Positions 2,975 to 28,340 of a stretch of DNA of 37,818 nucleotides are shown in pieces. The stretch's first letter is position 1. Each line of letters opens with the position of its first letter. The position numbers and the translations under genes are program-made. The notes beneath the pieces were generated by a model. The model was not told the DNA's origin and ran no database searches. It saw nothing but the letters and a program-made list of their open reading frames with translations. The stretch comes from Candidatus Obscuribacterales bacterium (lineage in GTDB: Bacteria > Cyanobacteriota > Vampirovibrionia > Obscuribacterales > Obscuribacteraceae): contig JAGVKB010000151.1 of the NCBI GenBank assembly GCA_020050835.1, forward strand, positions 1-37,818. The letters are read 5' to 3'.

Positions 2975-3024
2975 TGGCTGAACTTCCTTTGACTGTGCCG
3001 TTACCGTTTCGGGAGAGTTGCTAT

Positions 3025-4860
3025 TTAGAGTGAAGACGGCCGGTCGCTTGGTCTGTCCTCTTTAGGTTTTGCGGAATTTACTCCCGGAGTTGTTCTCTTC
3101 AGCATTGATGCGTATTCTTTGGCAAGAATTGATGTATCTGGATGACTGTGCCGTTCGTAAAGCCTAAGTGCTGTTTCGTAATTCGCTGCTGCCTGCTTGG
3201 TCTTGCTCTGGCACGAGTAAAGTCTAGCAAGCGTGATGCAAGGTCCGGCCATGCTCAAACAGTTCTGCCCTTGTTTTGCCAGCACGATCGATTGTGCCTG
3301 CTTGGCCGATGTTTCAGCTTGGGAGAGCTTCCCGAGCTTCTGATACACCGTCGCTTGTCTCAAGAGCAACCGAACTAGGAGCGCTTGATCGTTACTTGCT
3401 GTCTTGGCTATTGCACGGTTGAGTATGGCAAGCGCCGCGACATTTTCATCGCTGTCGATCAGTGTCTGGGCCAGCGGTAAAGCTGCCTGCGAACTTTCCA
3501 AATCGTCAGTTTTCAGGCTAGTGTATCGACTCAAGGCTTTTAACTGTTGCTGGATAGAGACTACTTCTGGATGGTTTAAGGTTCGAAAAATTTCCAATGA
3601 GTTTGTCAGATACTCAAGCGCTACAGGAAATCTGTTTTGAATTACGTATACATTGGCCAGAGAACGAAAGGCAACAGCTTTTCGAAGTTTCGCTGGGAAA
3701 GTATTGCTTTGCGAAAGGGCAATCACACGATTGAAGTTTTGCTCAGCTTGTCCGTATGAGCCAAGCTTCTCCTGCGCTTTCGCGACCGATAGTAGGTGGC
3801 TAGCTAGTCCCGGATCTGATGGGCCGAGCAGCTGCTCGGCGATCTGGAGAGATTTCGTGAAAAAGGCCAGCGCTTTAGTGTTTTGACCGATACTCAAGTA
3901 AAATTGTCCAACTATACTTGAGACTGTGGCGATTTGCTGGTCCTTTGGCCCCAAGCTGTCTATTCTCATAGCGAGGCTTTCGAGCAGGAGCTTCTCGGCC
4001 TGATAGTTTTCTCCTCTGGCTGCATAACATTGCCCCATTCCCATCACTGCATCTGCAAGGTCGATACTGTGGCGTCCTGGATAAAGCCTTCTACAGTCGA
4101 TCGCTTTTTGAAACAGTCCCTTTGCCTTTTCAAGCTCCTGGTTCTCCAGGTATCGCTTGGCGAGGCGATAGGTAATAGTAGCCACGTACGGATCGCATTT
4201 TCGGTTCGGGATATTTACCTCCTTTATCTGTAGAATTCTCGAATAGAGTGCGAGAGCTTCTTTCTGTCTCTGGTTCCTTTCATAAAAGGCAGCGAGATCA
4301 TTCAGGCTGCGAGCGATCTCCGGATTATCGGACCCAAGAGACTGTTCCTCGATTGCTAGCAGGCGCTTGTACATCGATTCAGCCGCAGGTAGACGATTTA
4401 ACTTTTCATAAAGAGAAGCGAGATTGAGGTACGCGCGCATTACATCGGGATGACTCGAGCTTGTTTTATCTAGTGCAAGAAGCTCCCGCCAAGTACACTC
4501 CGCCTCTAGCAGTTTATCAGCGCGTTGGTACGACAACCCTAGTTGATAAAGGCTGCCAGTCAGGCACTCGGGAATTAGCTTTTGTAATTTCGCTCGCTTA
4601 ACCGCGGACTGGAAAGAATTTATAGCTTGCAAGTAATCGCCGCCGCGATAGAACTCCAATCCGTCCTTCATGCTCTTCTTCCAAATCGCGTCTTCTGTTA
4701 ACGGGCGTTGCCACGGCAGGTCTGCTCTTCCTCTAATGGAAGCTCCACTGGCTGCTTGATTCAAGAAGGATTGCGGCTGTCCGGATGTGCCCGTGCCGAA
4801 TACTATTGAGAGGCACAAGGCAAGACCAGGCTTAATTTTGCTCGTAATTTGAGTAGACAA
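3025..4860 (-). CDS. Exported tetratricopeptide-repeat protein (set A)
   Basis: A protein of about 611 residues with an N-terminal hydrophobic stretch (about 12-27) that looks like a signal peptide. Serial TPR motifs cover most of the rest, such as YLQAINSFQSAVKRA, LEAECTWRELLALD and AESMYKRLLAIEEQSLG. The series resembles the kinesin-light-chain type of TPR, with 40-45 residue spacing and paired tyrosines. TPR arrays bind other proteins; no enzyme domain is visible. The start is a TTG at 4860 with only a weak AGG upstream. No ATG lies close by, so the start is uncertain by a few codons. It is immediately upstream of the kinase and divergent from the response regulator, and has a counterpart in set B (16901). 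This context suggests a periplasmic partner or signal-input protein for the kinase, which is an inference. Confidence 0.88.
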   Translation of the reverse strand: MSTQITSKIKPGLALCLSIVFGTGTSGQPQSFLNQAASGASIRGRADLPWQRPLTEDAIWKKSMKDGLEFYRGGDYLQAINSFQSAVKRAKLQKLIPECLTGSLYQLGLSYQRADKLLEAECTWRELLALDKTSSSHPDVMRAYLNLASLYEKLNRLPAAESMYKRLLAIEEQSLGSDNPEIARSLNDLAAFYERNQRQKEALALYSRILQIKEVNIPNRKCDPYVATITYRLAKRYLENQELEKAKGLFQKAIDCRRLYPGRHSIDLADAVMGMGQCYAARGENYQAEKLLLESLAMRIDSLGPKDQQIATVSSIVGQFYLSIGQNTKALAFFTKSLQIAEQLLGPSDPGLASHLLSVAKAQEKLGSYGQAEQNFNRVIALSQSNTFPAKLRKAVAFRSLANVYVIQNRFPVALEYLTNSLEIFRTLNHPEVVSIQQQLKALSRYTSLKTDDLESSQAALPLAQTLIDSDENVAALAILNRAIAKTASNDQALLVRLLLRQATVYQKLGKLSQAETSAKQAQSIVLAKQGQNCLSMAGPCITLARLYSCQSKTKQAAANYETALRLYERHSHPDTSILAKEYASMLKRTTPGVNSAKPKEDRPSDRPSSL

Positions 4861-5186
4861 TTCAATTGCCTGGAAAGTTTAGGACCGAATGCATGCAATT
4901 TACACTGCCATGAACCTACCCGGCTTAAGCGGGCGTCGCGTTAAGAATCCATGCGGAGAGAACTGTTTGCCAAGATCGACTATACCCAGTTTAGGGAGAG
5001 TGGCAATGCCATCGGCCGACCAGTGGTGGCCGCTAACAGTAGGGGTGTTGCGGTCGGCTCCTGGCGGTTGGCTCCTGGCGAGCTTCGCAGACTGATCGCC
5101 TGAGTTTGATTACTAGCGCAGGAACTTGGGCATTAAGCGATTGTCTGGCAGTATCTCCCAAGTTGGTTGGTTGATTGGTTGGTCAA
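4861..5186. promoter_or_regulatory. Divergent control region between TPR gene and response regulator
   Basis: These 326 nt separate two divergent genes and must contain both promoters. An 11-bp direct repeat, GGCTCCTGGCG, occurs at 5056-5066 and 5070-5080 (14-bp period). Just before the regulator start, 5163-5183 is a run of TTGG/TTGA tetranucleotides. OmpR-family regulators bind direct repeats, so the 11-bp pair is a possible autoregulatory site, although its spacing is unusual for the family. No clear -35/-10 could be assigned. Confidence 0.35.
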
Positions 5187-5879
5187 ATGGCGAAAATTCT
5201 AGTGGTAGAGGACGATCCGGCAGTCGCTAACAGCGTTAAGGAATGGCTGGAGCATGAGCGACATCTCGTTGAGTTGGTTGGCAACGGATTGGAAGCTATG
5301 GATCTTTTGTTCACGTTCGATTATGAACTGATAGTGCTCGACTGGAATCTCCCAAAACTAAGTGGGTTGGATGTCTGCAAGCAATATCGCTCAAGGCGAG
5401 GGAAAGTTCCGGTACTGATGCTGACCGGCAAAGGAGCAATTAGCGAGAAGGAAGAAGCATTCGACTGTGGGGCTGATGACTACTTGACCAAGCCGTTTCA
5501 CCCGCGTGAGCTTCTAGCCAGGGTGAAGGCTCTGCTTCGCAGACCCTCTGAGATTCGTCGAAACGTCTTGGAGGTTGGTAGTGTCACGCTCGATCCGACA
5601 TCGCGAAGCGTTACTGTCGGAAATAGGGAAGTTAACCTTGCACCAAGGGAGTTCGCGCTGCTGGAGTTTCTAATGCGTCATCCCAATGAGGTTTTCTCTG
5701 ACGATGCCTTGGTTAATCGCGTCTGGGGATCATTTTCAGAAGTGTCCCCGGATAATGTGGTGCGCAAAACGGTCAAGCGGGTTCGCGAAAAATTGAGTGT
5801 TGATGGCGATACAACGATCATAAAAACGGTTTATGGTGTGGGCTATCAACTGGTCGCACCAGAGAAGGGATCCGGGTGA
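5187..5879 (+). CDS. OmpR/PhoB-family response regulator (set A)
   Basis: A 230-residue two-domain regulator. The receiver (1-120) has the acidic pair Asp9/Asp10, phospho-acceptor Asp52 in IVLDWNLPK, Thr80 and Lys102 in DDYLTKPF. The C-terminal winged helix (about 130-227) ends with the usual KTVYGVGYQL strand. It should be phosphorylated by the nearby kinase and bind DNA. I chose the ATG at 5187 because the frame then starts MAKILVVEDD, exactly like the paralogue at 18627-19319. A TTG at 5175 in the same frame is possible but adds only four residues. No strong Shine-Dalgarno precedes either. It diverges from the TPR/kinase pair. There are very few differences from the set B regulator in catalytic residues, so cross-talk between the sets is possible. 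Confidence 0.93.
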   Translation: MAKILVVEDDPAVANSVKEWLEHERHLVELVGNGLEAMDLLFTFDYELIVLDWNLPKLSGLDVCKQYRSRRGKVPVLMLTGKGAISEKEEAFDCGADDYLTKPFHPRELLARVKALLRRPSEIRRNVLEVGSVTLDPTSRSVTVGNREVNLAPREFALLEFLMRHPNEVFSDDALVNRVWGSFSEVSPDNVVRKTVKRVREKLSVDGDTTIIKTVYGVGYQLVAPEKGSG

Positions 5880-9117: not shown

Positions 9118-11250
9118 ATGGGAAAACGTCAACAATCAGGACAAAGTACGGCGCTTGTTTGCGCTTGCCTTATGTTCATTGTCGTTCTTGGTCTTGGTTT
9201 ATTCTCGATTTTTAAGTTTCTCGGAGGCGCAAAGGAGTCGCAGAATGCGGCAGACTCGGGATCGCTGAATGTTGCCAGAGAAGTCGCGAAGAATGTTGGA
9301 GTGCCACTGTCGGCTGGAATTGAACTAGACAACTTTTCGCCGTTGGTTGATAAGGATACCGGCAAGATCAATCTATTGAGCTATAACCGCTTGGTCGGAC
9401 AAGTCTTGATGGTGGCGCTTAACGCCCAGGACGAAGGTACTGCGCTCGCTCAGCAACGGGCGAGGCAGCTGCTGGAGTCCGTACAATCTGGCTCTTCAAG
9501 CCTGTCGGCACGCCTTCATAGAGAGCTTTCGAGGCAAGATGGTCCGGCTGCCGGATACTTTAATCAGATGGCTGGTCGCAATTCCTTGCGCATGTTGGAT
9601 GGGGGAGCGGCTCTTGCTTACAATAAGAACGGCTATAAGGTAGCGTACCTTAGTCGCTACTCTGCTAGCAATCCGGATGGGGCAACAAATGTTTCCATCA
9701 ATCCGGCGGATCTTCCGACCGGCATGAAAGGGATACTCACAGATGTTGAAGATAAGAACAATCCCGGGTGCCGCTTCATAAAGGGCTATTCGGCTCTCAA
9801 TTTGCCTGATGTGGGCACTCTCTATGGTGTCACTACAAATCCAGGTCAGGGAGCACATCTGGTCTCCGTAAAGAGTTTTGAGGCAGAAAACGAATCGCCT
9901 GTGCCGTCTGGTTTTGTGCCTCCAAATTGTTTTCAGGCGGTGGCGAAAACGGGTGGTGAAAGGGGCCTGCTCAATGTTGCAATTGCTGAGATCGGATCTT
10001 TGACTAAGACGTTTAAGGCCGGAATTCCCGGAGGGTACATCAGAGTGAGAAATGAGGGTGGCATAGACTGGTTCGGTACTAACAACGCTTCAGTGGAAAA
10101 CCCCCTAAACAATGAACTGGTTGAGGGCATCTACCTGACCGCAGTGGCTAACGGCAGTCCAAGCAGTGCTGCTGGACCAATCTTTGCTATGGATAAGAAT
10201 TTGTTGAATGATTGGATCACTTACAACCAGAGTTTGGAAGCAGCAGGTACGCATCCGTGGGAAATGACGGATTGGCCTGAGGTCAACGGTAGAGCTTTAT
10301 CTGGAGAAGGCATCTTCAATGCCCAGGGAAATCCGGTCAGCCGGCAAGAGCTAGGCAGTATCTTAAGTTGGTATGGCAATGCGGGCAACAGCGAAGCTCA
10401 AGCGCCTCACAAATACGATTACCTGGACCTTGATCCGCGCGCCAATCATCCAGAGCTGGTGCAGTTGTATCAAAGCGGCGCGATCTTGAAAGCCTATACA
10501 AACAATCCGAATGCTAGCTTGGGCCGGGACAGCCTGCTCGCTGCAGAGTTTGCCAAGGCGCAGTTGATTGAGTCCTATTTTTCGTCCTGGAGTCATGATG
10601 GCGGACCTCGAACAATCAATGCAAGCAAGATAATGAGGACCGGGCTTAGAATATTCGATCGCGGGCTTATTTATATAACGATACCGCAGGGTATACCGAC
10701 TAATCCACTTCCGGCGCAGTCGATGCTGAGCGAGGGCACCATCAAATTTAGCCGACCAGGTACCGTCAATCAGTATCTAGACAAGGTCGATGAGGGTAAA
10801 GGTGCAGCAGGTTCTACAGCCAAGGCAACCATCAAGAACTTACTGTTCAAGCGATTGAGACAGGTAAGCCCAGGTCTGACAATGGCGAAGCTGAACAAGG
10901 CCTTGAACAAGATTGCACTTGATCTTGGCGAGACTGCATTCATCTACGCCGGGCAGGATGGTGAGCTAACCATGACAAAAGCGCCTCCGCCAGGAGCCAG
11001 ACAAAATGTGCCACCACCTGATGGTGCGCCGCAGATATTCAGCTCTCAAAAATATTCTCTGATTAACAGGGTGGTCAATCCACCGCACGAGCTGAACATT
11101 CACCACAAGCTGTTTGCTGCTTCGACCGGCCGAATTTATGGACAAGATCAGGTGCAGTTTACGCCCAACAGCGGTTTCGGCAATAGTCTCGGTGACCTGG
11201 TCTTCTACAACAGAGTCGAAGGTACTGCTACTTTCAGTGCACCTAACTAG
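9118..11250 (+). CDS. TadG-like long pseudopilin (cassette A)
   Basis: A 710-residue protein. The N-terminus has a short polar leader (MGKRQQSGQST) and one membrane helix (about 12-33). A KESQNAADSGSLNVAREV motif follows, equivalent to the NAADAAALAGA region of the TadG-like Flp pilus-assembly family. The rest is a long extracytoplasmic domain without recognised enzymatic motifs. The ATG at 9118 has AGGGGG 8 nt upstream; an in-frame TTG at 9076 is disfavoured. TadG proteins are thought to act as minor pilus or envelope-anchoring components. The paralogue at 26144 aligns along the first two thirds (shared blocks such as FIKGYSALN versus FLRGYEPLT and GYIRVRN versus GFIRIKL). This copy carries about 170 extra C-terminal residues. 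It heads a four-gene plus-strand run with gaps of 16, -1 and 10 nt. Confidence 0.82.
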   Translation: MGKRQQSGQSTALVCACLMFIVVLGLGLFSIFKFLGGAKESQNAADSGSLNVAREVAKNVGVPLSAGIELDNFSPLVDKDTGKINLLSYNRLVGQVLMVALNAQDEGTALAQQRARQLLESVQSGSSSLSARLHRELSRQDGPAAGYFNQMAGRNSLRMLDGGAALAYNKNGYKVAYLSRYSASNPDGATNVSINPADLPTGMKGILTDVEDKNNPGCRFIKGYSALNLPDVGTLYGVTTNPGQGAHLVSVKSFEAENESPVPSGFVPPNCFQAVAKTGGERGLLNVAIAEIGSLTKTFKAGIPGGYIRVRNEGGIDWFGTNNASVENPLNNELVEGIYLTAVANGSPSSAAGPIFAMDKNLLNDWITYNQSLEAAGTHPWEMTDWPEVNGRALSGEGIFNAQGNPVSRQELGSILSWYGNAGNSEAQAPHKYDYLDLDPRANHPELVQLYQSGAILKAYTNNPNASLGRDSLLAAEFAKAQLIESYFSSWSHDGGPRTINASKIMRTGLRIFDRGLIYITIPQGIPTNPLPAQSMLSEGTIKFSRPGTVNQYLDKVDEGKGAAGSTAKATIKNLLFKRLRQVSPGLTMAKLNKALNKIALDLGETAFIYAGQDGELTMTKAPPPGARQNVPPPDGAPQIFSSQKYSLINRVVNPPHELNIHHKLFAASTGRIYGQDQVQFTPNSGFGNSLGDLVFYNRVEGTATFSAPN

Positions 11251-11266
11251 TGAGGGAACCTTCCAA

Positions 11267-11746
11267 ATGAAATTCAATATTAGTGCATTTCTAGCAGTGC
11301 TATCAGCATTACTGAGTGTCACCACAGGTAATGCCCAGCAGGCGGAAATTGCCAAATCTACTTCTAGCCGGCAAGCGCAATGGCGGTACATCCGAAATGC
11401 CGAGGAGTTTCGGTCTGTTGATTTGACTGCGCTGCCGCGGCTTCCAGATTTACCGGGTTACACCGGACGGTCATACCTCTTCGTAGCCGGACAGGAATTC
11501 CCGAACATGCGGACAGGAAGAGTCGTCAACCTTGAGTTCTGCACCTTGGAAGGTCCGGCAGTAGTGAGTCAATGGTATCGGACGGTGCTGCCGCAATACG
11601 GCTGGACAATGGAGCCGGCTGCTTCTACAAGCTTGAAAATTTCCGCCAGAAAAGACAACAAATCTTGCCGAGTATCGGTATCGGATACCGGCGAGGAGGG
11701 ATACGCCGGTCAGGTAACCATTATCTATAAGGAGGACAAAGGTTAA
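11267..11746 (+). CDS. Small exported protein with a QWYRxxLPxxGW motif (cassette A)
   Basis: 159 residues. The ATG at 11267 has GAGGGA about 9 nt upstream, 16 nt after the TadG-like stop. Residues 1-22 are a signal peptide (LAVLSALLSVTTGNAQQ). The mature part contains a proline-rich entry (LPRLPDLPGYTG), a strand/turn region and the block VVSQWYRTVLPQYGWTMEP. This block resembles exported proteins in which 'WYR..L...GW' is followed by a beta-hairpin. The gene at 27789 has the same layout (FPVPVYPGN, then AFAWYQTYCIKQKW) and also sits next to a TadG-like gene, so the two are probably counterparts. The stop codon overlaps the next ATG by one base, so translation is probably coupled. Function is unknown; a periplasmic chaperone or stabilising partner for the pseudopilins is a guess. 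Confidence 0.72.
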   Translation: MKFNISAFLAVLSALLSVTTGNAQQAEIAKSTSSRQAQWRYIRNAEEFRSVDLTALPRLPDLPGYTGRSYLFVAGQEFPNMRTGRVVNLEFCTLEGPAVVSQWYRTVLPQYGWTMEPAASTSLKISARKDNKSCRVSVSDTGEEGYAGQVTIIYKEDKG

Positions 11747-12234
11747 TGCGCTCACCGAGCTTCACCGCACAATGCAAGCGACGGCAATCCGGGTCGGCAA
11801 TCGCGGAGTTCGCTCCTTGTCTGGGCGTTCTGCTTTTTCTTGTCTTCTTTCCGGTCGTTAATCTGATGTCTGTGACTTTCTCCTATGGTTGCGGGTGGTA
11901 TCTCAATTATTTGCAAACGAGGGAGGCTGCCATCACAGCCAAAGTTAGACAGGGGGAGATTAGGAATCGCTCGACGATTTCTGCGGTTCTTCAGCAGGTA
12001 AGGCAAGACTGGAGCAGAACCGGACTCGGACGATTCACGCATGCTTCTGATACTTCCGAGCGGTTTTTGCTCACCGCTGAGGTACCGAACATCGACCGTG
12101 CATTGACGGTTACCACAAATGTCACGGTCTCTCCGTTGCTGATAGTGCCGTTTCCCGCAAGGGTTCCTGGTCTCAATGCTCCTGTGGCATTCTCCTACAG
12201 AGCTCAGCGCCAGGTCGAGAATCTTCTTTACTGA
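11746..12234 (+). CDS. TadE-like pseudopilin 1 (cassette A)
   Basis: 162 residues. A basic leader (QCKRRQSGSAIAEFAPCLG) is followed by a single N-terminal membrane helix (about 25-48). The acidic SAIAEFAP motif matches the G-S-x-x-x-E-F pattern of TadE-family pseudopilins, where the Glu corresponds to Glu+5 of type IV pilins. The globular part is beta-rich and ends with a PFPARVPGLNAPVAFSYRAQRQVEN block. The paralogue at 25081 shares this in PLPIVNAPGLNGPMTFTI. The start is fixed by the TAATG overlap with the upstream gene. No prepilin peptidase is present in the window to process it. Confidence 0.82.
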   Translation: MRSPSFTAQCKRRQSGSAIAEFAPCLGVLLFLVFFPVVNLMSVTFSYGCGWYLNYLQTREAAITAKVRQGEIRNRSTISAVLQQVRQDWSRTGLGRFTHASDTSERFLLTAEVPNIDRALTVTTNVTVSPLLIVPFPARVPGLNAPVAFSYRAQRQVENLLY

Positions 12235-12244
12235 GGTTTGACAA

Positions 12245-12676
12245 ATGAAAATGGGAGTTGCGCAGCAGCGCTTTCAGTCTGGACAGGGGCTTGCAGAGTT
12301 ACTTTGTGGCATGACTATCCTCGTTCTTGTGGCCTTATTCTTGATTGATCTCTTTGCGCTAGCAGTTGGCGCTAGCTTTAACGACGAGCTTGCCAAACGA
12401 GCGGCTCGGGCGGCGGCCAGCAAAGCCAGTGGGAATGAAGCTACCGTTGTAGTAGACCAGGTAAGGAGAAGCTGTCCGACAAACGGTATTGTCGAAAAGG
12501 TAAATACACTTCGGGTCAGCAAGTTCGATGCCCGTCCCGGTGGCGGCGTCCGCGTAAGGTCGGTTGTTTCGATTCGGCTACCTATTCCAGTTCCGTTTTG
12601 CCGCTCGTTAGGCGACGTATCTTTCCGCGCTGAAGCCGAAGAACCGATTGTTGGGCTAGAAGCGAGAGCGATGTAA
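12245..12676 (+). CDS. TadE-like pseudopilin 2 (cassette A)
   Basis: 143 residues, 10 nt after the previous gene. The N-terminus (QQRFQSGQGLAELLCG) carries the TadE-type G-Q-G-L-x-E motif before a membrane helix (about 20-42). FNDELAKRAARAAASKA then corresponds to the ND..A..AARAAA region of TadE proteins. The C-terminal half is beta-rich with IPVPFCRSLGDVSFRAEAEEPIV. The gene at 25689 is its counterpart (GQGLVEAIAAAF, NSMNDTAAKNAARAAA, VPFPGYSHVTFVAQDVEPIV). It is the last gene of the run and converges with the aldehyde dehydrogenase. The likely location is the cell envelope. Confidence 0.82.
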   Translation: MKMGVAQQRFQSGQGLAELLCGMTILVLVALFLIDLFALAVGASFNDELAKRAARAAASKASGNEATVVVDQVRRSCPTNGIVEKVNTLRVSKFDARPGGGVRVRSVVSIRLPIPVPFCRSLGDVSFRAEAEEPIVGLEARAM

Positions 12677-12806: not shown

Positions 12807-14342
12807 TCAATCTATTTTTAGCCAGACTGATTTGAGCCGGGTGTATGAATCTAAGGAATGCACCGCCATCTCCTTTCCCCAGCCGCTTTGCTTGAATCCG
12901 CCAAACGGGCTGGCAAAGTCGTAGCAGCCATACTTGTTGATGAAGATCATTCCGGCATCCAGTTTGTCAGCCATCCGGTGAGCTCGAGAGAGATTGGCGG
13001 TCCAAACTCCGGCAGCCAAGCCGTAAGTCGTTTCGTTGGCCATTTTGACCACTTCATCCTCATCGGAAAATGGGGTAACTACCAGCACCGGACCAAAAAT
13101 CTCTTCTTGGGCGATCGGCAGACGATTATCGACATCGGCAAAAATGGTCGGTCGTACGAAGAACCCCTGTTCATTGTCTCCGCTCACATCTCGGTGCCCA
13201 CCGGCAACTAGCTTGAGCCGATCTTTCTTTCCTTTCTCTATGTAATAGAGAATCTTGTTCAATTGCTGCTCGTTGCATTGGGCGCCCTGGGTGGAGCGGC
13301 TGTCGAAAGGGTCTCCGCAAATGGTGGCTTCGGCTCGACTTGAGAGCTCCGCGAGGAATTGATCGTAAATTGACTTATGCAGGAAGAATCGTGTGGGCTC
13401 CGAGCACTTCTCGCCTTTGTGAGAGAACATGGCGTCAAAAGATCTCTGAATGGCAAAAGCGAGATCGGGAGCATCTTCGAAGACGATGTTGGGTGACTTG
13501 CCGCCGAGTTCGAGAGAGATAGTTTTGAGATTCGAATCAGCCGAGCCGTGTACGACTCTTTTTCCGGTTGCGGTGCTGCCGGTAAAAGAGATTTTGTCGA
13601 CGTCCGGATGCTCTGTCAGCAACTTTCCTGTTTCGGCCCCGCCAGTGACCAAATTAATCACTCCGGCCGGGAGATCTACCTCGTTCTGAACGATCTCCAT
13701 GAAGCGAAGGATGGAAAACGGAGTGAACGGTGATGGTTTGACCACGACGGAATTGCCCATTGCCAGTGCTGGAGCGATCTTCCAGGCGGCAAGCAAGAGC
13801 GGAAAGTTCCAGGGAACGATCAGCCCGCAGACGCCTAGCGGCTCTCGCTTCGTGTAGTTGAGAAAGCCTGCGTCGACCGGGCAATTTTCAGAATAATACT
13901 TATCGATCCAACCGGCATAGTACTCGAAAACCTCCCACACTTCCGGAATGTCGTCGTTGAACGCTTCTCTGTATAGCTTGCCGTTATCCAGGCATTCTAG
14001 AGTAGCCAACTCAGCGTGATGGCGACGCACCACAGTAGCGATCTGCCTGAGCAACTCGGCCCGTTTACGGCGACTCATCGTTCGCCAGCTTTCGGAGCTG
14101 AAGGCGCTGCGGGCGGCGGATACGGCTGAATCAACATCGATTTTGCTTGCTTCGGCAAAATGTCCGAGCAGCTTTCCGGTGGCTGGATTTGTAGACGAGG
14201 AGTATTCTTCGCCGGCTGGTTTTCTCCAGGTTCCACCGATGAATAACTCCTTCCTTTCGCTGAGCCATGCAGTAGCCCAATTGACGGTGGGAGCGGTGGC
14301 GTCATATCCGGTGCCGGTTGTGTCTTCTAGTAGTATGGTCAT
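12807..14342 (-). CDS. NAD(P)-dependent aldehyde dehydrogenase
   Basis: 511 residues, full length for the classical ALDH superfamily, which oxidises aldehydes to carboxylic acids. Visible motifs are the NAD-binding PWNFP (about 177-181), VVKPSPFTP (about 200-208) and FTGSTATGK (about 253-261). The general-base Glu278 lies in LELGGKSPNIV, the catalytic Cys313 in GEKCSEPTR, and EEIFGPVL and GGFKQSGWGKE lie toward the C-terminus. The block around the nucleophile reads EKCSEPTR rather than the common QCCxAGTR. The nucleophile is conserved but its neighbours are unusual, so substrate preference may differ. The ATG at 14342 has GAGGA about 8 nt upstream. It is the last gene of a minus-strand set with the lyase (36 nt gap) and the oxygenase, which suggests it oxidises an aldehyde made by that pathway. 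Confidence 0.93.
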   Translation of the reverse strand: MTILLEDTTGTGYDATAPTVNWATAWLSERKELFIGGTWRKPAGEEYSSSTNPATGKLLGHFAEASKIDVDSAVSAARSAFSSESWRTMSRRKRAELLRQIATVVRRHHAELATLECLDNGKLYREAFNDDIPEVWEVFEYYAGWIDKYYSENCPVDAGFLNYTKREPLGVCGLIVPWNFPLLLAAWKIAPALAMGNSVVVKPSPFTPFSILRFMEIVQNEVDLPAGVINLVTGGAETGKLLTEHPDVDKISFTGSTATGKRVVHGSADSNLKTISLELGGKSPNIVFEDAPDLAFAIQRSFDAMFSHKGEKCSEPTRFFLHKSIYDQFLAELSSRAEATICGDPFDSRSTQGAQCNEQQLNKILYYIEKGKKDRLKLVAGGHRDVSGDNEQGFFVRPTIFADVDNRLPIAQEEIFGPVLVVTPFSDEDEVVKMANETTYGLAAGVWTANLSRAHRMADKLDAGMIFINKYGCYDFASPFGGFKQSGWGKEMAVHSLDSYTRLKSVWLKID

Positions 14343-14378
14343 CTGAATTGTCCTCGATTTTTTTTCACTTTTCTGTCT

Positions 14379-15659
14379 TCAACCTTTGAGCGGTGCAGCC
14401 TGGAGTTTGGACGGATGCGACTGTTCTGCCAGTTGCGTGCAACGCTCCTTGTTGGCGCTAATGCCTGAAATACACTTATCTGACAACAGCGTAATCGACG
14501 TCGCCATCATGTCAATGGCATCCAGCATGTTCTTTGCCATTGCCGGCTCGAAGATGTTGAGATTTAACTCGCAATGTTCGAGTGCGGCTTGTACTGCGGT
14601 GTCCGCTCCGAGCACTTGCATGCATGCCTGAATTACGGTTTCAGGCACAACGGGATTGACCTTCAGGTGGAAAAAGGATGATCCCTCCTGCAGTGCCGGC
14701 AGCGTTATCTCGCCGAATCCACCATTTGGACCGGAAGAAAGCAACCTCAAGTCTTTGCAGATTTTGATCAGGCTCTGCGCAAGCAAGCGTAATTGTGCCG
14801 ATACGTTGCCGATATCGTCGCTATTTTGAGCGGCGTCGAAGAGGTTTTCTCTTGTGCCAAAGCTTACCGATGAATAATCAGACAAAATTCCAATTACGAC
14901 TGCTCTGTAAGTTTGGCTTGCGCCATCGCCGGAACCGATTACGGTGCCACCAAGATTGACTCTTTCCAGCTTGTTTATGCTATTGCAAAGTTCCTTGCGC
15001 CTTCGTTCAATCACCGCATCGAAGGCGCCGAATGTTTCTCCGAGGGGGACAACCAGCGCGTCCTGCAGGCAAGTGCGAGCGAGCGTCTTGATTGGCAGGA
15101 ATTCGACTTTCTTTAGACAGAGAGTCTTCGACAGCCTTTTGAGAGCATTGTCAAGGCGAAGCGAGGCCTTGATGATCGCCAGGCGCACTCCGGTGTGGCA
15201 GACGTCAGCGGTAGACTGACTGAGATTGACGTGTTTGGTCGGATGGACTGGAGAGAACTCGCCAGGTAACCGTCCAAACTGCACATTTGCACTGTTGGCG
15301 ATTACCTCGTTTAGATTTACATTGAAGGCGATGCCACCGCCGCCGTGCAACATATCGACCGGAAAATGGCATCTTTGATCATGGTTTGCCAAATTGATAC
15401 AGGCGCTCTCAATGGCACGATGAATGCTCTCAGTTAGAAGACCCGACGCGAGATTTGCCGCAGCGCAGGCGCGTTTTACAGTCAGTAGCGCTGCCAGGAA
15501 GTCTGGATAATCACTCAACGGAGACCTCGAAAAACTGAGATTTTCAAGGCATCGTGCCGTCCCCACGCCGTAAAGGCAAGTGGACGGCAAGCTAACTTCG
15601 CCGAAGCGATCGCTTTCGATGCGCACCGAGCGCTGTTTTTCTTCAGACGGTGCGGCCAT
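14379..15659 (-). CDS. Divergent aspartase/fumarase-superfamily lyase
   Basis: 426 residues, somewhat short for aspartate ammonia-lyase (about 470). Family landmarks are ESDRFGEVSLP near the N-terminus (compare E-x-D-x-x-G-x-x-x-V-P), VHPTKHVNLSQSTADVCHTG (131-157 region, compare VHPNDHVNMSQSTNDVFPT) and the C-terminal signature loop. That loop reads GSSFFHLKVNPVVPE (326-340) where the family has GSSxMPxKVNPVxPE. The Ser pair and Lys333 are kept but the Met-Pro is lost, and the Asn of STND is Ala. Superfamily members cleave C-N or C-O bonds to release fumarate-like products. The altered residues imply a different substrate, possibly a modified amino acid, or loss of activity. It overlaps the upstream oxygenase by 17 nt, so the two are almost surely co-expressed. 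Confidence 0.8.
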   Translation of the reverse strand: MAAPSEEKQRSVRIESDRFGEVSLPSTCLYGVGTARCLENLSFSRSPLSDYPDFLAALLTVKRACAAANLASGLLTESIHRAIESACINLANHDQRCHFPVDMLHGGGGIAFNVNLNEVIANSANVQFGRLPGEFSPVHPTKHVNLSQSTADVCHTGVRLAIIKASLRLDNALKRLSKTLCLKKVEFLPIKTLARTCLQDALVVPLGETFGAFDAVIERRRKELCNSINKLERVNLGGTVIGSGDGASQTYRAVVIGILSDYSSVSFGTRENLFDAAQNSDDIGNVSAQLRLLAQSLIKICKDLRLLSSGPNGGFGEITLPALQEGSSFFHLKVNPVVPETVIQACMQVLGADTAVQAALEHCELNLNIFEPAMAKNMLDAIDMMATSITLLSDKCISGISANKERCTQLAEQSHPSKLQAAPLKG

Positions 15660-16587
15660 ATCTTATGTTACGCAGATAGTTGCTGCTAACAACTCCGGGA
15701 CGGGTGTCGTATCCGAGCAGAGCGATTAGTCTCAGGCGCTCTCCTTCAATCGGAGTGACTCTGTGTAGCGAATGGCGACCTTCGAAAAGCACTAGTGAAC
15801 CTGGCGAGATGTCCAGCCGGAGAACGCCTTCGGTAGAACCGTTCAATATCTTCTTGACACTTTCGTAACTTTCATTGTCCGGAGTTCTTATCATCGGTAC
15901 AAACTCGTACTCACCGCCACCTTGAGATTCCTGGAGCAAAATAGTGGTGACGAAGTCGGTTTGATCGAAGTGCCACCGCAGGTGATCTCCCTTCTTCATT
16001 ACTGCTATGTTCAGTCCTCCCATCGGGTCTGCATAGCGGTAAAAGGTCTCCTTATTAAGAGCGTCTTTCAGGAACAGCATCAGTCCGTCCCATTCGTATA
16101 ACTGGCGAATGAGTGCTTGCTCTGGAATTAGATCGTAAGCCACCGCCCCTAGTGCGGTAGTGCTCGTCCAATTCCGAGGATGGTCGGACGGAAGGGATTG
16201 ATCCAGTTCAGTCAGGTAGGCATTGCCAGTCAGAGTGTTGTGATAGGCCTTTGGAGCCATGTCCTCTGCCTCTTTAGCCAGCGCCGCTACCGCCTCGGTC
16301 TTAATAAAGTCGGGCAGGACGCAAGCTCCGACGGATTTCAGCTGTTTGCGGCAGCTTGCAACCAGCTGCTGATAACTTTCACTGTCTTGCGCTACGATCG
16401 GGTAGCGATCAAGGTCGATCAACTCAGATGGACAAGAGATCGATAAGCCTGTCGCTTCGTTTGGTTTGACGAGCGTTCCGGAGTCGCTTTGCACCTTACT
16501 GTACCTGTGTTTCACCGGGGATAACGGCAATATCTTAACGCCGCCCTTCCGAGTACATAACAGGTACGCAGTTAACATCGCTATCAT
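15643..16587 (-). CDS. 2-oxoglutarate/Fe(II)-dependent oxygenase, amino-acid-hydroxylase type
   Basis: 314 residues. The iron-binding triad is visible: His206 and Asp208 in RWHFDQTDF, and His275 in GRHSLHRVTP, followed by the co-substrate-binding region GERLRLIALLGYD (Arg284/Arg286). The surrounding pattern (HFDQTDFVTTILLQ, GGGEYEFVPMIR, SPGSLVLFEGRHSLHRVTPIEG) resembles the family that contains free-amino-acid hydroxylases and the BesD-type amino-acid halogenases. Halogenases replace the Asp of HxD with Gly or Ala; here Asp208 is present, so hydroxylation is expected. The N-terminal 50 residues are poorly protein-like and no strong Shine-Dalgarno precedes the ATG at 16587, so the true start may lie downstream. 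First gene of the oxygenase-lyase-ALDH set. Confidence 0.85.
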   Translation of the reverse strand: MIAMLTAYLLCTRKGGVKILPLSPVKHRYSKVQSDSGTLVKPNEATGLSISCPSELIDLDRYPIVAQDSESYQQLVASCRKQLKSVGACVLPDFIKTEAVAALAKEAEDMAPKAYHNTLTGNAYLTELDQSLPSDHPRNWTSTTALGAVAYDLIPEQALIRQLYEWDGLMLFLKDALNKETFYRYADPMGGLNIAVMKKGDHLRWHFDQTDFVTTILLQESQGGGEYEFVPMIRTPDNESYESVKKILNGSTEGVLRLDISPGSLVLFEGRHSLHRVTPIEGERLRLIALLGYDTRPGVVSSNYLRNIRYGRTV

Positions 16588-16900: not shown

Positions 16901-18634
16901 TCACTTCTGTGACCTTTCTTTAGCCGTGCTCTGGATTCTAGCCAGTCGAGCCCTTGCACTTTCAATCTCGTCGTTGCGCTGGAGCGCGCTCAGAGTCTCG
17001 AGATAGTACGGACCCCAGTACCTGGTTGGGCAACGGTCGTAATCTCCTCTTTCCTCGGCGAGCTTGATCGCCCTCGCAAAAAGTGGCTCTGCCTCAGCGA
17101 ATTGTTTGAGAGCAGCCAAGTCGACCGCAGTATGCCCGAGATATTGGAGCAGGATTTGCTGGTTCGGACGGTAATGGGTCTCAGCCAGTGTCAAGGCTTT
17201 CCTGGCTAGCGGCAGGGCCAGGTCGAATTTCCCTTGCCAATTGTATTCGTATCCCCAAGAGTCGCAGACTTCGGCGATCTTGGCTGTGTGATTGCCTGGA
17301 GCAGTCAAAACAACTGAGAGGGCTTTCTTGTAATAGGTTTCTGCTTCAGCAAACTTCTTCTGCCGGCAGTATGCGCTGGCAAGCAGCATCCAGCTATCAG
17401 CAATCGGCTCACTTTGGTCTGGGAAAGCCTGTTTGATGGCAATCGACTTTTTTATGTATCGATCTGCCTCTGCCAGCTGTCCGGTGTAGAGATAAGCCTC
17501 GCCAAGCAATTGTAGGTCGATGACAAAATTTGGCTCGGAGAATGTGGGGGCATTCGGGCTCTGGTTTGTTAGTTCCTTGTAAAAGGATATAGCTTTGCCC
17601 AATTGGTCGCGGTTTCCAGTGGCCTTGCCGGTAATCAAGTAAACTTTTGCCAGTATGCGAGCGCTGGAAGTTGGTTCCATTCCTATATCCGGCCCAATCT
17701 TGGCCAGTTCTTTTGCAGTTGAAAGTGCTTCCGGCCACTCTGCTTGTCTGAGCAAGACTTCAATCAGATTGGACTGGCAGAGGAGCCGGGAAGAGTTGTA
17801 CTTGCGGCCAGTCCTTGCGTATATGGCTAGCGCGCGCTTGTAAAACTGCGCGGATTCCTGGTAGAGACCATTGTGATCGTATAGTGCGGCCGCCTTCTGA
17901 AAGACGGCGGCGACGTTGGGATCTTGAGCCGGCAAGCTGTTTTGCTGAATGGAAAGGATCTGATCTATGATCGGTTTTGCTTTGAGGAAATTCCCTTGGG
18001 CGAGGAATAAGGCCGCTCGATTGTTCAGGATGGTTGCGACTACCAGTGGAGACGTTCCAGACTCTTGCGCGGACTTTAGCTGATGCTGGAAAAGTTCATC
18101 CGCTTTACTGGAGTCGCTTTTGCTCGAATATAAAGCGGCAAGCTCTGATTGGGCCGCCAGAATGGTCGGATGTTGGGACCATAGTCTATATTTCTTAAAG
18201 TCCATTGCTGTGCAAAGAAGCTCTTTAGCACTCTGAAAGTCTCCGTTCTGCCGTCTGATTGCGCCCAGCTTGTATCTGCTGGTTGCCACGCGCTCGTCGG
18301 TGGGCGAAATGCGCTCGGCCAACTTGAGAGAATGCTCGTACAACTTATCGGCCAGTTGATAGTCTTGCACAATCGCTGCTGTTTGTGCTGCTTCGTATGA
18401 CTGTCGCCAGGCAAAAAAACGACCGCCTGGACTCTCTTCGGGATCGGCCGGGCGGATAGTCTCACTGTCAATCTCGATTCGCCGAAGTCGCTCTTTGTCT
18501 GTTGAGTTCGACTCTCGCTCTTTCGAGATCGCATTTTCTGCAGCTAGTGCCAGCAATGGTGGGTGCCAACCGGCAAAAGCAATCGAAAGAAAAAGGATCG
18601 ATTTTAGCCGGTGCGCCGCTGTCATTTTATTCAT
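16901..18634 (-). CDS. Exported tetratricopeptide-repeat protein (set B)
   Basis: 577 residues. The signal peptide spans about 12-31 (ILFLSIAFAGWHPPLLALAAE). TPR units fill the chain, for example YQLADKLYEHSLKLAERIS, LYQESAQFYKRALAIYARTG, LAEADRYIKKSIAIKQAF and FAEAETYYKKALSVVLTAPG. It is the counterpart of the TPR protein at 3025 in length, secretion signal and genomic company. The ATG at 18634 lies inside the last codons of the response-regulator gene (8-nt overlap), so the exported protein and the regulator are translated from one message. That coupling suggests the TPR protein belongs to the signalling pathway, either as a partner of the kinase sensor domain or as an output. This is inferred from context. 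Confidence 0.9.
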   Translation of the reverse strand: MNKMTAAHRLKSILFLSIAFAGWHPPLLALAAENAISKERESNSTDKERLRRIEIDSETIRPADPEESPGGRFFAWRQSYEAAQTAAIVQDYQLADKLYEHSLKLAERISPTDERVATSRYKLGAIRRQNGDFQSAKELLCTAMDFKKYRLWSQHPTILAAQSELAALYSSKSDSSKADELFQHQLKSAQESGTSPLVVATILNNRAALFLAQGNFLKAKPIIDQILSIQQNSLPAQDPNVAAVFQKAAALYDHNGLYQESAQFYKRALAIYARTGRKYNSSRLLCQSNLIEVLLRQAEWPEALSTAKELAKIGPDIGMEPTSSARILAKVYLITGKATGNRDQLGKAISFYKELTNQSPNAPTFSEPNFVIDLQLLGEAYLYTGQLAEADRYIKKSIAIKQAFPDQSEPIADSWMLLASAYCRQKKFAEAETYYKKALSVVLTAPGNHTAKIAEVCDSWGYEYNWQGKFDLALPLARKALTLAETHYRPNQQILLQYLGHTAVDLAALKQFAEAEPLFARAIKLAEERGDYDRCPTRYWGPYYLETLSALQRNDEIESARARLARIQSTAKERSQK

Positions 18635-19319
18635 GCGGACTTGACTGTGGTGGAATCAATTGATAACCGAGCCCAAAGACTGTGTGAATCAGGGCCGGGA
18701 ATTCAGCCCTTTCAATTTTCTGGCGCAATCGAGTGATGTTCTTTCGAACCGTATCTGGTGATGCATCCGACTCGGCAGTCCAAACTCTCGTCAATAATGC
18801 ATCGGCACTGAATACCTGGTTGGGATGGCGCATCAGGAACTCGAGAAGCGCCAGCTCCTTGGGCAGGAGTTTTGTTGATGCTCCATTGACGCTGACACTT
18901 CGCGAAGCTGGTTCTAGCGTGACGTGCCCAGCGACCAGTGCATCCGTTCGCAGTGTATGCGGTCGGCGCAAGAGAGCTCTGACCCGTGCGGCAAGCTCTC
19001 TGCCTTCAAATGGCTTGGTCAAGTAGTCGTCGGCGCCGATGTCGAAGGCTTGCTCCTTTTGATCTACTGCATTTTTTCCCGTTAACATCAACACCGGTGC
19101 TTTGCCGCTGTCTGCACGATACTTCCTGCAGACTTCCAGACCGCTTTGTTTGGGAATGTCCCAGTCGAGTATTACCATGTCATAGCCGGACAAGCATAGT
19201 AGGTCAAGGGCATAGGTCCCGTCCGTCGCTTTATCGACTACGTGATTGAGGCTTTCCAACAGCTGTGCGACGTTCTCGAGAACGCCGGGATCATCTTCTA
19301 CGACCAGGATCTTTGCCAT
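18627..19319 (-). CDS. OmpR/PhoB-family response regulator (set B)
   Basis: 230 residues from the ATG at 19319, starting MAKILVVEDD like the set A regulator. A longer frame back to a TTG at 19376 is open but not aligned in the paralogue. The receiver has Asp9/Asp10, Asp52 (VILDWDIPK), Thr80 and Lys102 (DDYLTKPF). A winged-helix DNA-binding domain (about 130-228) ends IHTVFGLGYQLIPP. It should be phosphorylated by the divergent kinase at 19447. The gene order is the reverse of set A: here the regulator leads the TPR gene and the kinase diverges, whereas in set A the TPR leads the kinase and the regulator diverges. Targets are unknown; adjacent promoters are obvious candidates. Confidence 0.93.
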   Translation of the reverse strand: MAKILVVEDDPGVLENVAQLLESLNHVVDKATDGTYALDLLCLSGYDMVILDWDIPKQSGLEVCRKYRADSGKAPVLMLTGKNAVDQKEQAFDIGADDYLTKPFEGRELAARVRALLRRPHTLRTDALVAGHVTLEPASRSVSVNGASTKLLPKELALLEFLMRHPNQVFSADALLTRVWTAESDASPDTVRKNITRLRQKIERAEFPALIHTVFGLGYQLIPPQSSPHE

Positions 19320-19446
19320 TACTAGCGAAATGGGCAGTTTCAATTTAGACACATTGGACGCTAGTTTTATTCCCAAACCCTGCTCACAATAATCCGAGCC
19401 AGGGTATTACTAGAATTGGCGATACCGTAACTGTCATCCCCAAGTT
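19320..19446. promoter_or_regulatory. Divergent control region between regulator and kinase (set B)
   Basis: These 127 nt separate the divergent regulator and kinase and should carry both promoters. The 12-mer TTCAATTTAGAC occurs at 19339-19350 and again, just inside the kinase gene, at 19477-19488. It could be a binding-site pair, but part of it is coding, so chance or ancestral duplication is also possible. Confidence 0.3.
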
Positions 19447-25080: not shown

Positions 25081-25575
25081 ATGACAATACGAAGAGGTAG
25101 TGGTGAGCGCAAGCGGACCGGGTCGTCAATCACCGAGTTTGGACCGGCGATCGGGCTGCTATTGCTCTTCTTTTTCCTGCCGCTGGTAGACATGTTGAGT
25201 ATGTGTGTGGCGTACGGCTGCTGCATGCTGCTCAATAACATGCAGGTTCATGAGGCCTCGCTCATTCCCTGGGCGGACGCGGAAAACGCTGATGGGCCAG
25301 TCAGAAAGAACATCCCAATTCAGTGGAAGACCTCTGGATTCGGTCAGTATGTGAAGGTTGTCGGCGATGTCCAGTCGGTTGTTGACTACCGACATGGCGA
25401 GAGCGTTTCGGATGGTGTTACCGATAAGATCGTGTCGGTCAAGACGACGGTAACTTGCAGTCCGTTTTTGCCGATTCCGCTGCCGATCGTAAACGCACCG
25501 GGTCTAAATGGTCCAATGACTTTTACGATTTTCTCGGAGCGGCCGATGGAGAATCCCGATTACGGCAAACCATAA
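25081..25575 (+). CDS. TadE-like pseudopilin 1 (cassette B)
   Basis: 164 residues. A basic leader (RRGSGERKRTG) is followed by SSITEFGPAIG, the TadE-type motif with its conserved Glu, and one membrane helix (about 22-44). The rest is extracytoplasmic and beta-rich and ends with PLPIVNAPGLNGPMTFTIFSERPMEN, matching the end of the cassette A protein at 11746. The N-terminal helix regions also share the unusual YGC block (VAYGCCMLLNN versus FSYGCGWYLNY). It is the first gene of cassette B, divergent from the membrane protein at 24878, so its promoter should be in 24879-25080. The Shine-Dalgarno is weak. Confidence 0.82.
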   Translation: MTIRRGSGERKRTGSSITEFGPAIGLLLLFFFLPLVDMLSMCVAYGCCMLLNNMQVHEASLIPWADAENADGPVRKNIPIQWKTSGFGQYVKVVGDVQSVVDYRHGESVSDGVTDKIVSVKTTVTCSPFLPIPLPIVNAPGLNGPMTFTIFSERPMENPDYGKP

Positions 25576-25688
25576 TGCGAAGCTGGCGCTTGAAATTGAG
25601 CGATCTTAAACAGTTTCCTACTTCTACCGCCTAATTTTCGGCGATCCTCAAGTAAGATTATCAAGCGCTCGAAATTGGGGGTAGCAAG

Positions 25689-26078
25689 ATGAGAGTCGGT
25701 AAGAAATCTGAAAAAGGTCAGGGACTAGTCGAAGCGATAGCCGCAGCGTTCATTCTCATCCCAATTGCGCTTTGCTTGTTGGATTTGATCGTAGTGGTTA
25801 TGGCTAATTCCATGAATGACACAGCTGCTAAGAATGCGGCGCGGGCTGCTGCAAATCAGGGAGATCAAGCATCTGCGTCTCTGGCTGCGGAAAAATCCAT
25901 TCAGTCCTTCAAAAGCTCGGCGATTGTAAGCTCAATCGTGCTAGACAGTGTTGATTATCCGCCGAGCAAGGATGGCGTGACCGTTCGAACCAAAATGGAA
26001 GTAAATCTACCGGTCCCCTTTCCCGGATACAGCCATGTCACATTCGTAGCGCAAGATGTCGAGCCGATCGTCTATTAA
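25689..26078 (+). CDS. TadE-like pseudopilin 2 (cassette B)
   Basis: 129 residues. The ATG has GGGGGT about 6 nt upstream. The N-terminus KSEKGQGLVEAIAAAF carries the G-x-G-L-x-E pseudopilin motif, followed by a membrane helix (about 16-38) and NSMNDTAAKNAARAAANQG, the conserved TadE follow-on helix. The beta-rich C-terminal half ends VPFPGYSHVTFVAQDVEPIVY, closely matching the cassette A protein at 12245. It lies 113 nt after pseudopilin 1 and 65 nt before the TadG-like gene, on the same strand. Confidence 0.82.
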   Translation: MRVGKKSEKGQGLVEAIAAAFILIPIALCLLDLIVVVMANSMNDTAAKNAARAAANQGDQASASLAAEKSIQSFKSSAIVSSIVLDSVDYPPSKDGVTVRTKMEVNLPVPFPGYSHVTFVAQDVEPIVY

Positions 26079-26143
26079 GAGCGCCTGTCGCTTCAAACAG
26101 GCTGGCTCACAATTTAGAAGTTAGTTATTAAGGGTATGTTTTC

Positions 26144-27766
26144 ATGACGGTGAGCCCCAGCAAGTCTTTGGCAAAGAATCAACTGCAACGTGACAAAGGG
26201 TCGGCGATCGCTTTTAGCGCAGTGCTGGCCCTGATATTGGTACTGCTCGGAGTGGCATTCGTAGTAATCTCCATGTATATGGGTGGGGGCAAGGAGATTA
26301 AGAATGCAGTCGATGCCGGAGCGCTCAATGTCGGACGGAAAGTGCTCGATGAGGAGATCGTCTCGGTCAATTTGAGCGCTGATGCAAATCAACAGTTTTT
26401 CCGAGATGTTACCGATACCGGCACGGTTGACGGGAAAGTTACCCTGCGCAATATCAATCGAGTCTGGGCCAAAGCGCTGTTTGTGGCTCTCAATGCTGAC
26501 GCAGCCGGCGGCGATGCCGGCCCAACCGATGCCAGTGTTCAGGCTGCACATGACGGTGCCCTGGCTATTAGCAACGGTCTCGCTGAAAAACTTACTACTG
26601 CAGCAAACCTTGAAGGATTTTTCACCGATTTCGCCCAGCGCAATTCTGTTCGAATGATCGGTACTGATGTCAGCGTCACTGTGATTCCCGGTGCCGGCTG
26701 GCAGACCTCTTTGATGAATCGAGCCGCAGAGAGCAACATTGAGATAAAAGATAACTTGCCGTCGGCCATTGGAGGAGCACTGGTTACCGCCTGTACGCGC
26801 AACCCGGCGCCTGCCGGGGCGGCCGGCAAGACATTCTTGCGTGGCTACGAGCCTTTGACGGCGGCGGGATTGACCTTCTGGCAGGTGCCGTTCCAATACG
26901 AAGAGAAGCCGCATCTTGTTGCCAGATCGACCTTCGATAACGGAAAGCAGCCGCCGAATATGCTGCCGGCGGTCTGGGACAATCCGCCTCCGAATGCCTT
27001 CTCGGTCGAAGGAAAGGCCGTCAAGGCTGGCTCAACAGGTGAGCTGGCGATGTCCTGGGTGCTGACTAATCCCAAGCAGACCTATCCGATGCAGTTTCCG
27101 CTTGGATTCATAAGAATCAAGCTGGCCAGGAACATCGTGCAGTGGTATCCGGATGGAATTGCCGCCGGAGAAGACCATTACAAATTTGAATCGGATACCG
27201 TTACGAGCCCGGCTTATCCGGCCCCACCATGCGGACTTTGTGTCGCTACAGCTTATGTTGGCAATGAGTACTTTCCACCGAGTTTGTACAAAGCTATCTG
27301 TGCTATCGAGCCGATTGGGGGAGAAGCTATGAATCGGCTGCTACAGCGAGTCAAAGAGATGAATCCGGATTTTACTATGAACAACCTTGAGACTCTGCTG
27401 GATGAATGCTTGATGCTGGACACTGAAGATGCAGATCATGAGTTTCTTCTGTGGTCTGACGGGCAAGGGCACATGTCTGTTCAAGAGTTGAGCGCGGCTG
27501 TCTTGCCGCCCGGTTTGGACGCGTCGCAACATCCAGAGGGAACCGACCTGGTCGTTGATGTCGAGCCGGGAGTGCCGCTCTACAATAACGCTGATTTCGT
27601 TATTAAATGCCCGGGTGACTTCGGTCCGTTTCCGGCAGTAACCGAGCTTTCCGGTACTCGTACATGGTATGCGGGCACCGGCTTCAAGGGTGGATGTTTG
27701 GGTGAACTGGTGATTCAAAGGAAGACCGATGTCTATTTCGGTGGCATCTGTCCCTGCGCACCTTAA
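26144..27766 (+). CDS. TadG-like long pseudopilin (cassette B)
   Basis: 540 residues. The N-terminus has QRDKGSAIAFSAVLAL and a membrane helix (about 20-44), followed by GGGKEIKNAVDAGALNVGRKV, the TadG-type block after the helix. The extracytoplasmic part matches the cassette A protein in several places (ALFVALNAD / LMVALNAQD, RNSVRMIG / RNSLRMLD, FLRGYEPLT / FIKGYSALN). It lacks that protein's long C-terminal extension and instead ends in a Cys-containing tail (GGCLGEL and GGICPCAP), which may be disulphide-bonded outside the cell. It is the last gene on the plus strand of cassette B, and its stop is 22 nt from that of the convergent small exported gene. Confidence 0.82.
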   Translation: MTVSPSKSLAKNQLQRDKGSAIAFSAVLALILVLLGVAFVVISMYMGGGKEIKNAVDAGALNVGRKVLDEEIVSVNLSADANQQFFRDVTDTGTVDGKVTLRNINRVWAKALFVALNADAAGGDAGPTDASVQAAHDGALAISNGLAEKLTTAANLEGFFTDFAQRNSVRMIGTDVSVTVIPGAGWQTSLMNRAAESNIEIKDNLPSAIGGALVTACTRNPAPAGAAGKTFLRGYEPLTAAGLTFWQVPFQYEEKPHLVARSTFDNGKQPPNMLPAVWDNPPPNAFSVEGKAVKAGSTGELAMSWVLTNPKQTYPMQFPLGFIRIKLARNIVQWYPDGIAAGEDHYKFESDTVTSPAYPAPPCGLCVATAYVGNEYFPPSLYKAICAIEPIGGEAMNRLLQRVKEMNPDFTMNNLETLLDECLMLDTEDADHEFLLWSDGQGHMSVQELSAAVLPPGLDASQHPEGTDLVVDVEPGVPLYNNADFVIKCPGDFGPFPAVTELSGTRTWYAGTGFKGGCLGELVIQRKTDVYFGGICPCAP

Positions 27767-27788
27767 TCAAGATAGCTAACTCAATCTA

Positions 27789-28340
27789 TTACTTGCTCTT
27801 GGTGGTCCAACTTACATTGATTAGAGTAGCGGCACCCTTTGTGTCTTTGGCGCAGGAGATGATCATGCGCTCGTTGCCCTTTGTGGCCATCAATCTATAC
27901 AGTCGTCCTTCCTCTTCCATTTTGTTACGAGCTTTCCCTTTTGGTACTTTCACAGCCCATTTCTGCTTGATGCAATATGTCTGATACCAAGCAAATGCTG
28001 TATCGGCTGCGTCTTTCGTAATGATGGTCGCTGCTGCCGCCGGATGACCTTTAGTCGTGGCGACGAAATGCTTCGAAGTGACATTGCCCGGATAAACCGG
28101 CACTGGAAAGTTGGAAGGGATCTCATCGGACTGCTGAAGTCCGTCTATCTTGGGGTGGAAGTCACGACGTGGCGATCTTTCTGTTGGTAATTTCTTGCCG
28201 GCTTGAGAGCTGCTCTCTTCATCCGCAAGGCTTAACTGCCCGCTGCTTGCCAAAAGAATAAGCAGCAACAATGATGATGCCGCTTGCGTAAACCTCGGCT
28301 CTGCAGCTGGTTGCGTGGCTCGGAAGAGTCGGTTTGTCAT
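27789..28340 (-). CDS. Small exported protein with AWYQxxCxxxxW motif (cassette B)
   Basis: 183 residues. The ATG at 28340 has GGGGAGA about 6 nt upstream. A signal peptide spans about 19-39 (SSLLLLILLASSGQLSLADE). A polar linker is followed by IPSNFPVPVYPGNVTSKHF, then AAATIITKDAADTAFAWYQTYCIKQKWAVKVPK and a beta-hairpin end. The layout, prolines then a helix ending in WY....W then strands, resembles the cassette A protein at 11267 and a broad family of small exported proteins of unknown function. It is on the opposite strand to its cassette, unlike in cassette A, so it would be expressed separately. Function is unknown. Confidence 0.72.
   Translation of the reverse strand: MTNRLFRATQPAAEPRFTQAASSLLLLILLASSGQLSLADEESSSQAGKKLPTERSPRRDFHPKIDGLQQSDEIPSNFPVPVYPGNVTSKHFVATTKGHPAAAATIITKDAADTAFAWYQTYCIKQKWAVKVPKGKARNKMEEEGRLYRLMATKGNERMIISCAKDTKGAATLINVSWTTKSK

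Follow-up and report, generated by a model that had tools for sequence, protein, structure and literature searches.

Multi-copy TadG/TadE cassettes as probable exchangeable tips of a Tad pilus in an uncultured member of the Obscuribacterales

Introduction

Why would a bacterium encode TadG-like and TadE-like proteins in a tight run of genes that has no Tad machinery next to it? The question arises from contig C77 of a 7.0-Mb assembly (154 contigs) of the Obscuribacterales (Melainabacteria). The entire contig, 37,818 bp in length, is the window, that is, the stretch of DNA that was analyzed. A preliminary description of the window proposed that the run encodes a distinct envelope structure made from pseudopilins. 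We have followed the run through the rest of the genome and through a collection of genomes, apparently mostly MAGs, of which 53 represent the order and 187 the rest of the class. The reading that we favor, with a probability of about 0.7, is that the four-gene cassette specifies one of several exchangeable tip complexes for a Tad (Flp) pilus whose engine is encoded elsewhere in the genome. This uncultured bacterium appears to combine a single pilus machine with a whole series of tips that can be exchanged. A literature search returned no prior report on Melainabacteria and Tad pili, and among the literature compared, genetic proof of exchangeable Tad tips comes from Myxococcus only (PMC12075869).

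The cassette encodes TadG-like and TadE-like proteins of the pilin type

The cassette consists of four open reading frames on the forward strand at positions 9118 to 12676, with gaps of 16, -1 and 10 nt between them, and the coordinates agree with the order and spacing given in the preliminary description. The first reading frame (9118..11250) encodes a predicted TadG-like large minor pilin of 710 amino acids and starts with an ATG at 9118 that is directly preceded by GGGGG. It is followed by the gene for a small exported protein of 159 amino acids with a signal peptide, here called EXP (11267..11746), and by the genes for two predicted TadE/F-like minor pilins, TadE1 (11746..12234, 162 amino acids) and TadE2 (12245..12676, 143 amino acids). 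Because homologues of these genes recur side by side in many genomes, the run is more than a chance arrangement.

The family names TadG and TadE are assigned on the basis of weak, below-cut-off matches in Pfam and NCBIfam together with transitive homology. For the TadG-like protein of the window, the matches to PF13400 (E 0.067) and TIGR03816 (E 0.006) both lie below the cut-off, and a paralogue encoded on contig C52 reaches E 7.7e-4 and 20.2 bits against PF13400, compared with a cut-off of 22.3. The TadE-like proteins of the window give no direct match to PF07811 or to any other Tad family in Pfam or NCBIfam. TadE2 is, however, homologous to a lone TadE protein encoded on C52 (BLAST 1.5e-12) that scores above the Pfam TadE cut-off, and the profiles of TadE1 and TadE2 match each other with an E value of 2.9e-11. 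Searches of the TadG and TadE2 profiles against PDB sequences returned no relatives.

Both TadE-like proteins carry the conserved glutamate that had been reported to follow the leader, within the motifs SG/SAIAE and SG/QGLAE, where the slash marks the cleavage site after Gly. Across the aligned families, Glu is found at position +5 in 22 of 23 TadE1 and in all 19 TadE2 sequences, and residue -1 is Gly or Ala in every one of these proteins except a single TadE1. The TadG-like proteins share the Gly at -1 (46/49), but none of the 49 has Glu at +5; in 48 of them this position is occupied by Leu, Phe, Ile, Met or Val, and the TadG-like protein of the window has Leu. We judge the earlier assignment of these proteins to a pseudopilin type to be right.

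The same sites bear on which pilus the cassettes might serve. A type IVa pilus locus with PilB, PilT, PilC and PilD is present on contig C26, so the cassettes could in principle supply minor pilins to that pilus and not to a Tad pilus. We consider this very improbable, as the cassette sites G/SAIAEF and G/QGLAE are of the Flp/TadE type, like the site of the Flp protein of this genome (G/QGITEY), and not of the GFTLIE type, and the TadE2 family includes a Pfam-positive TadE in the C52 protein.

The TadG-like protein resembles a pilin frame with a variable middle domain

The hydrophobic residue at +5 of the TadG-like proteins invites comparison with type II secretion. In most type II secretion and type IVa systems a hydrophobic residue 5 is found in just one minor pilin, and in type II secretion and Gram-positive type IV pili this minor pilin is also oversized (PMC5207764). 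The bulk of GspK, together with its missing Glu5, would restrict GspK to the tip (PMC5207764). The cassette likewise combines an oversized pilin that is hydrophobic at +5 with smaller partners that carry Glu+5, an arrangement that resembles GspK-GspI-GspJ. By analogy with GspK, the lack of Glu+5 would place the TadG-like protein at the end of the filament. The families are different, the sequences showed no relation to GspK, and the filament expected here, unlike that of the GspK tip complex, is a Tad pilus.

The predicted structure of the TadG-like protein of the window has an N-terminal helix of 52 residues and a long C-terminal beta hairpin, with pLDDT values of about 88-93 across most of the hairpin. 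Confidence is lower in the middle, and the mean pLDDT is 72.8; with a model of this low overall confidence, Foldseek found no relative in the PDB. The alignment of TadG-like proteins shows the same division, in that the ends are conserved and the middle (residues about 331-570) is variable and rich in gaps. From the model and the alignment we infer that the TadG-like protein is a pilin frame bearing a variable tip domain.

EXP is the conserved partner encoded directly downstream of TadG-like genes and is marked by the motif LPxLPxYTG...WYxxALxxxGW. Its predicted structure is a small alpha/beta domain, confident over the core, for which a structure search gave just weak, unrelated matches; likewise, neither Pfam nor NCBIfam holds a family that fits it. 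The constant position of EXP behind TadG points to a role as a dedicated chaperone or as a partner in the tip, and the protein is best read as an undescribed secreted fourth partner of the tip cassette.

A Tad engine without tadEFG lies on other contigs

Whole-genome searches for T2SSE, T2SSF, A24 peptidase and secretin families gave nothing on C77, so the earlier statement that Tad machinery is missing holds for the window. It does not hold for the genome, in which a Tad locus and a prepilin peptidase of the TadV type were both found on contig C114. This locus encodes Flp, CpaB, TadZ, TadA, TadB, TadC, a short conserved gene read as DUF192-like, and the TadV-type peptidase; Flp is named by its G/X4-EY site and its size and gives no Pfam match. 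TadE, TadF and TadG are missing from the locus. Two tandem genes for RcpA/CpaC-like secretins that carry the pilus N-terminal domain PF13629 lie on a different contig from the engine, C88 (locus L125, 4927-10077). Three further ATPases of the T2SSE family are encoded on C73 and C38 (loci L017 and L018), contigs that gave no match for a T2SSF platform gene.

We also read the engine loci of six relatives (G051, G020, G014, G002, G016 and G024), all of which keep the Flp-CpaB-TadZ-TadA-TadB-TadC synteny. None of the six contains TadG, and only in G016 does a TadE1-like gene adjoin the engine. The six-contig assembly of G016 places TadA on contig 4, apart from the listed TadG matches, which fall on contigs 1, 2 and 5. 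A complete Tad locus that lies beside the window and takes in the cassette genes in other strains, an arrangement contemplated in the preliminary description, was not found; the engine is elsewhere and is without them.

An orthologue of the engine TadA (at least 733 bits) is present in 47 of the 53 genomes of the order, with an identity of about 79-93% across the order, and the best match outside the order scores 446 bits. The TadG copies, by comparison, share about 25-40% identity with the TadG-like protein of the window. A TadG-like profile, made from a closer subset for the scan of the collection as the full alignment is too diverged, detects 52 of the 53 genomes of the order and none of the 187 others in the class. 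Six incomplete genomes of the order contain TadG-like genes and lack the engine TadA orthologue. Many relatives also encode a second type of TadA, with about 45-50% identity, and TadAs at a similar distance occur in the rest of the class. This second type is absent from the present genome, which has one TadA at E<=1e-80, and there is thus a single Tad engine for the cassettes to use. At two loci of relatives (L133 and L135) the second TadA is accompanied by its own CpaB/TadZ/TadB/TadC-like genes.

These results can be set against the proposal that the cassettes form a pseudopilus-like envelope structure separate from any Tad pilus. The proposal draws on the position of the cassettes outside the engine loci that were read, save for one TadE1, and on the extra partner EXP, which is not described in Tad systems. 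Yet neither an assembly ATPase nor a platform gene turned up next to the cassettes, and both the TadG family and the engine TadA orthologue have a distribution restricted to the order. The engine lacks tadEFG in this genome and, apart from the TadE1-like gene in G016, in the six relatives, which makes a separate envelope structure less likely than Tad minor pilins or tips; we regard it as unlikely. For the Tad tip reading, we infer that several paralogous TadEFG clusters serve the engine on C114.

The cassettes recur in diverged copies throughout the order

A complete second set of these genes, which the preliminary description did not include, lies in the same window at 25081-28340, about 12 kb from the first. 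It comprises TadE1 (25081..25575), TadE2 (25689..26078) and a TadG-like gene of 540 amino acids (26144..27766) on the forward strand, and an EXP homologue (27789..28340) on the reverse strand.

A profile search identified nine distinct TadG-like loci in the genome, two on C77 and one each on C62, C13, C32, C44, C52, C114 (partial) and C151 (weak). The gene order of the first cassette, TadG-EXP-TadE1-TadE2, is repeated on C13, and the TadG copies on C62 and C52 have no TadE within the stretch examined. The lone TadE gene on C52, the only Pfam-positive TadE of this genome, is located between genes for ribosomal protein L1 and a dnaJ-like protein (locus L016, 9305-9826).

In the order as a whole, a search with the TadG-like protein gave matches in all 53 genomes, mostly several per genome, with nine in this genome and up to 18 in G024, counts in which a single gene may appear twice. 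TadE1-type genes and EXP are likewise found in 53 of 53 genomes (17 and 6 matches in this genome, respectively). The TadG-like, TadE-like and EXP genes of the order are usually present in multiple diverged copies and away from the engine. In loci fetched around TadG matches, EXP lies within 300 bp of TadG for 20 of 27 TadG-like genes, and TadE1 and TadE2 each lie within 6 kb for 16 of 27. Distances among TadG proteins correlate with those of EXP (Mantel r 0.87), TadE1 (0.78) and TadE2 (0.54), values that include the shared ancestry of the genomes and offer support rather than proof. Two loci (L063, 6099-10971, and L065, 4407-9430) contain tandem TadG-like duplicates upstream of a single EXP gene, which suggests recent tip duplication.

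The number of copies could also reflect redundancy, in which case the cassettes would provide Tad minor pilins whose sole role is in DNA uptake or the initiation of pili, and not different tips. There is a precedent in Micrococcus luteus, in which tadE/F/G genes of a second cluster are required for Flp pili and transformation (PMC4322843). The copies are nevertheless old and strongly diverged, at about 25-37% identity, and TadG varies most in the middle; specialization fits this pattern better than redundancy does, and we find the redundancy reading quite unlikely.

Comparison with known Tad tips and a proposed mechanism

The closest counterpart is the Kil system of Myxococcus xanthus, in which four paralogous TadE/F/G-like clusters (KilL/KilM/KilN) act as tips that can replace one another on a single Tad pilus (PMC12075869). 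Any single tip cluster is enough for piliation, and its loss requires the removal of all four (PMC12075869). As in Kil, a TadE/TadF/TadG-type trio occurs here in paralogous clusters that lie mostly away from a single Tad engine, and the distal domain of the large third protein is variable and has no known fold. Given these likenesses, Kil tips are the best model for how the cassettes work. They differ in belonging to another phylum, in their higher copy number (about nine TadG-like genes, and as many as 18 matches in one relative) and in the additional conserved exported protein EXP; the Kil tip profiles themselves matched Myxococcota only (PMC12075869). Kil is linked to a needleless type III secretion system and to predation.

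A likeness is also seen to CpaJ/CpaK/CpaL of Caulobacter and TadE/TadF/TadG of Aggregatibacter, in which two small TadE/F-type pilins and a large TadG-type protein are proposed for the tip. A model of the Caulobacter proteins joins them in a trimer at the tip, to which CpaL contributes a vWA domain (PMC12607857). Unlike CpaL, the TadG-like proteins here show no vWA domain by Pfam among 22 members, and unlike both systems, the trio is multi-copy and located outside the tad locus.

We propose the following mechanism for the Tad tip reading. The TadV peptidase would cleave TadE1 and TadE2, which would form the base of the tip and attach it to the filament. The TadG-like protein would cap the very end of the filament with its variable middle domain exposed, and EXP may act as its periplasmic or secreted partner. 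The single engine (Flp, CpaB, TadZ, TadA, TadB, TadC and TadV, together with the RcpA secretins) would assemble the pilus and fit it with the tip of whichever cassette is expressed, and different cassette copies may confer different binding or sensing specificities.

On a wider scale, it is quite possible, though somewhat less likely than not, that the order as a whole holds an arsenal of interchangeable Tad tips (TadG, two TadE-type pilins and EXP) served by one strongly conserved engine, with a repertoire that differs by species and sets the targets of adhesion, sensing or attack. With multi-copy tip cassettes throughout the sampled part of an uncultured order near the Cyanobacteria, tip exchange would be a more general route to pilus diversification. 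The variable domains of TadG also form a large natural collection, and EXP is a new candidate component.

Surroundings of the cassettes in the window

Promoter and terminator scans gave signals that were not clearly above those of shuffled sequences. Consecutive genes for an aldehyde dehydrogenase, a Lyase_1-family lyase and a HalD-like member of the Fe(II)/2OG halogenase family lie at 12807-16587 and may form a small cluster for amino acid halogenation. The window also encodes two similar sensor kinases (1142-2974 and 19447-21291), each in the neighborhood of an OmpR-type regulator and a TPR protein, and these two regions near the cassettes (1142-5879 and 16901-21291) look like a duplicated regulatory block.
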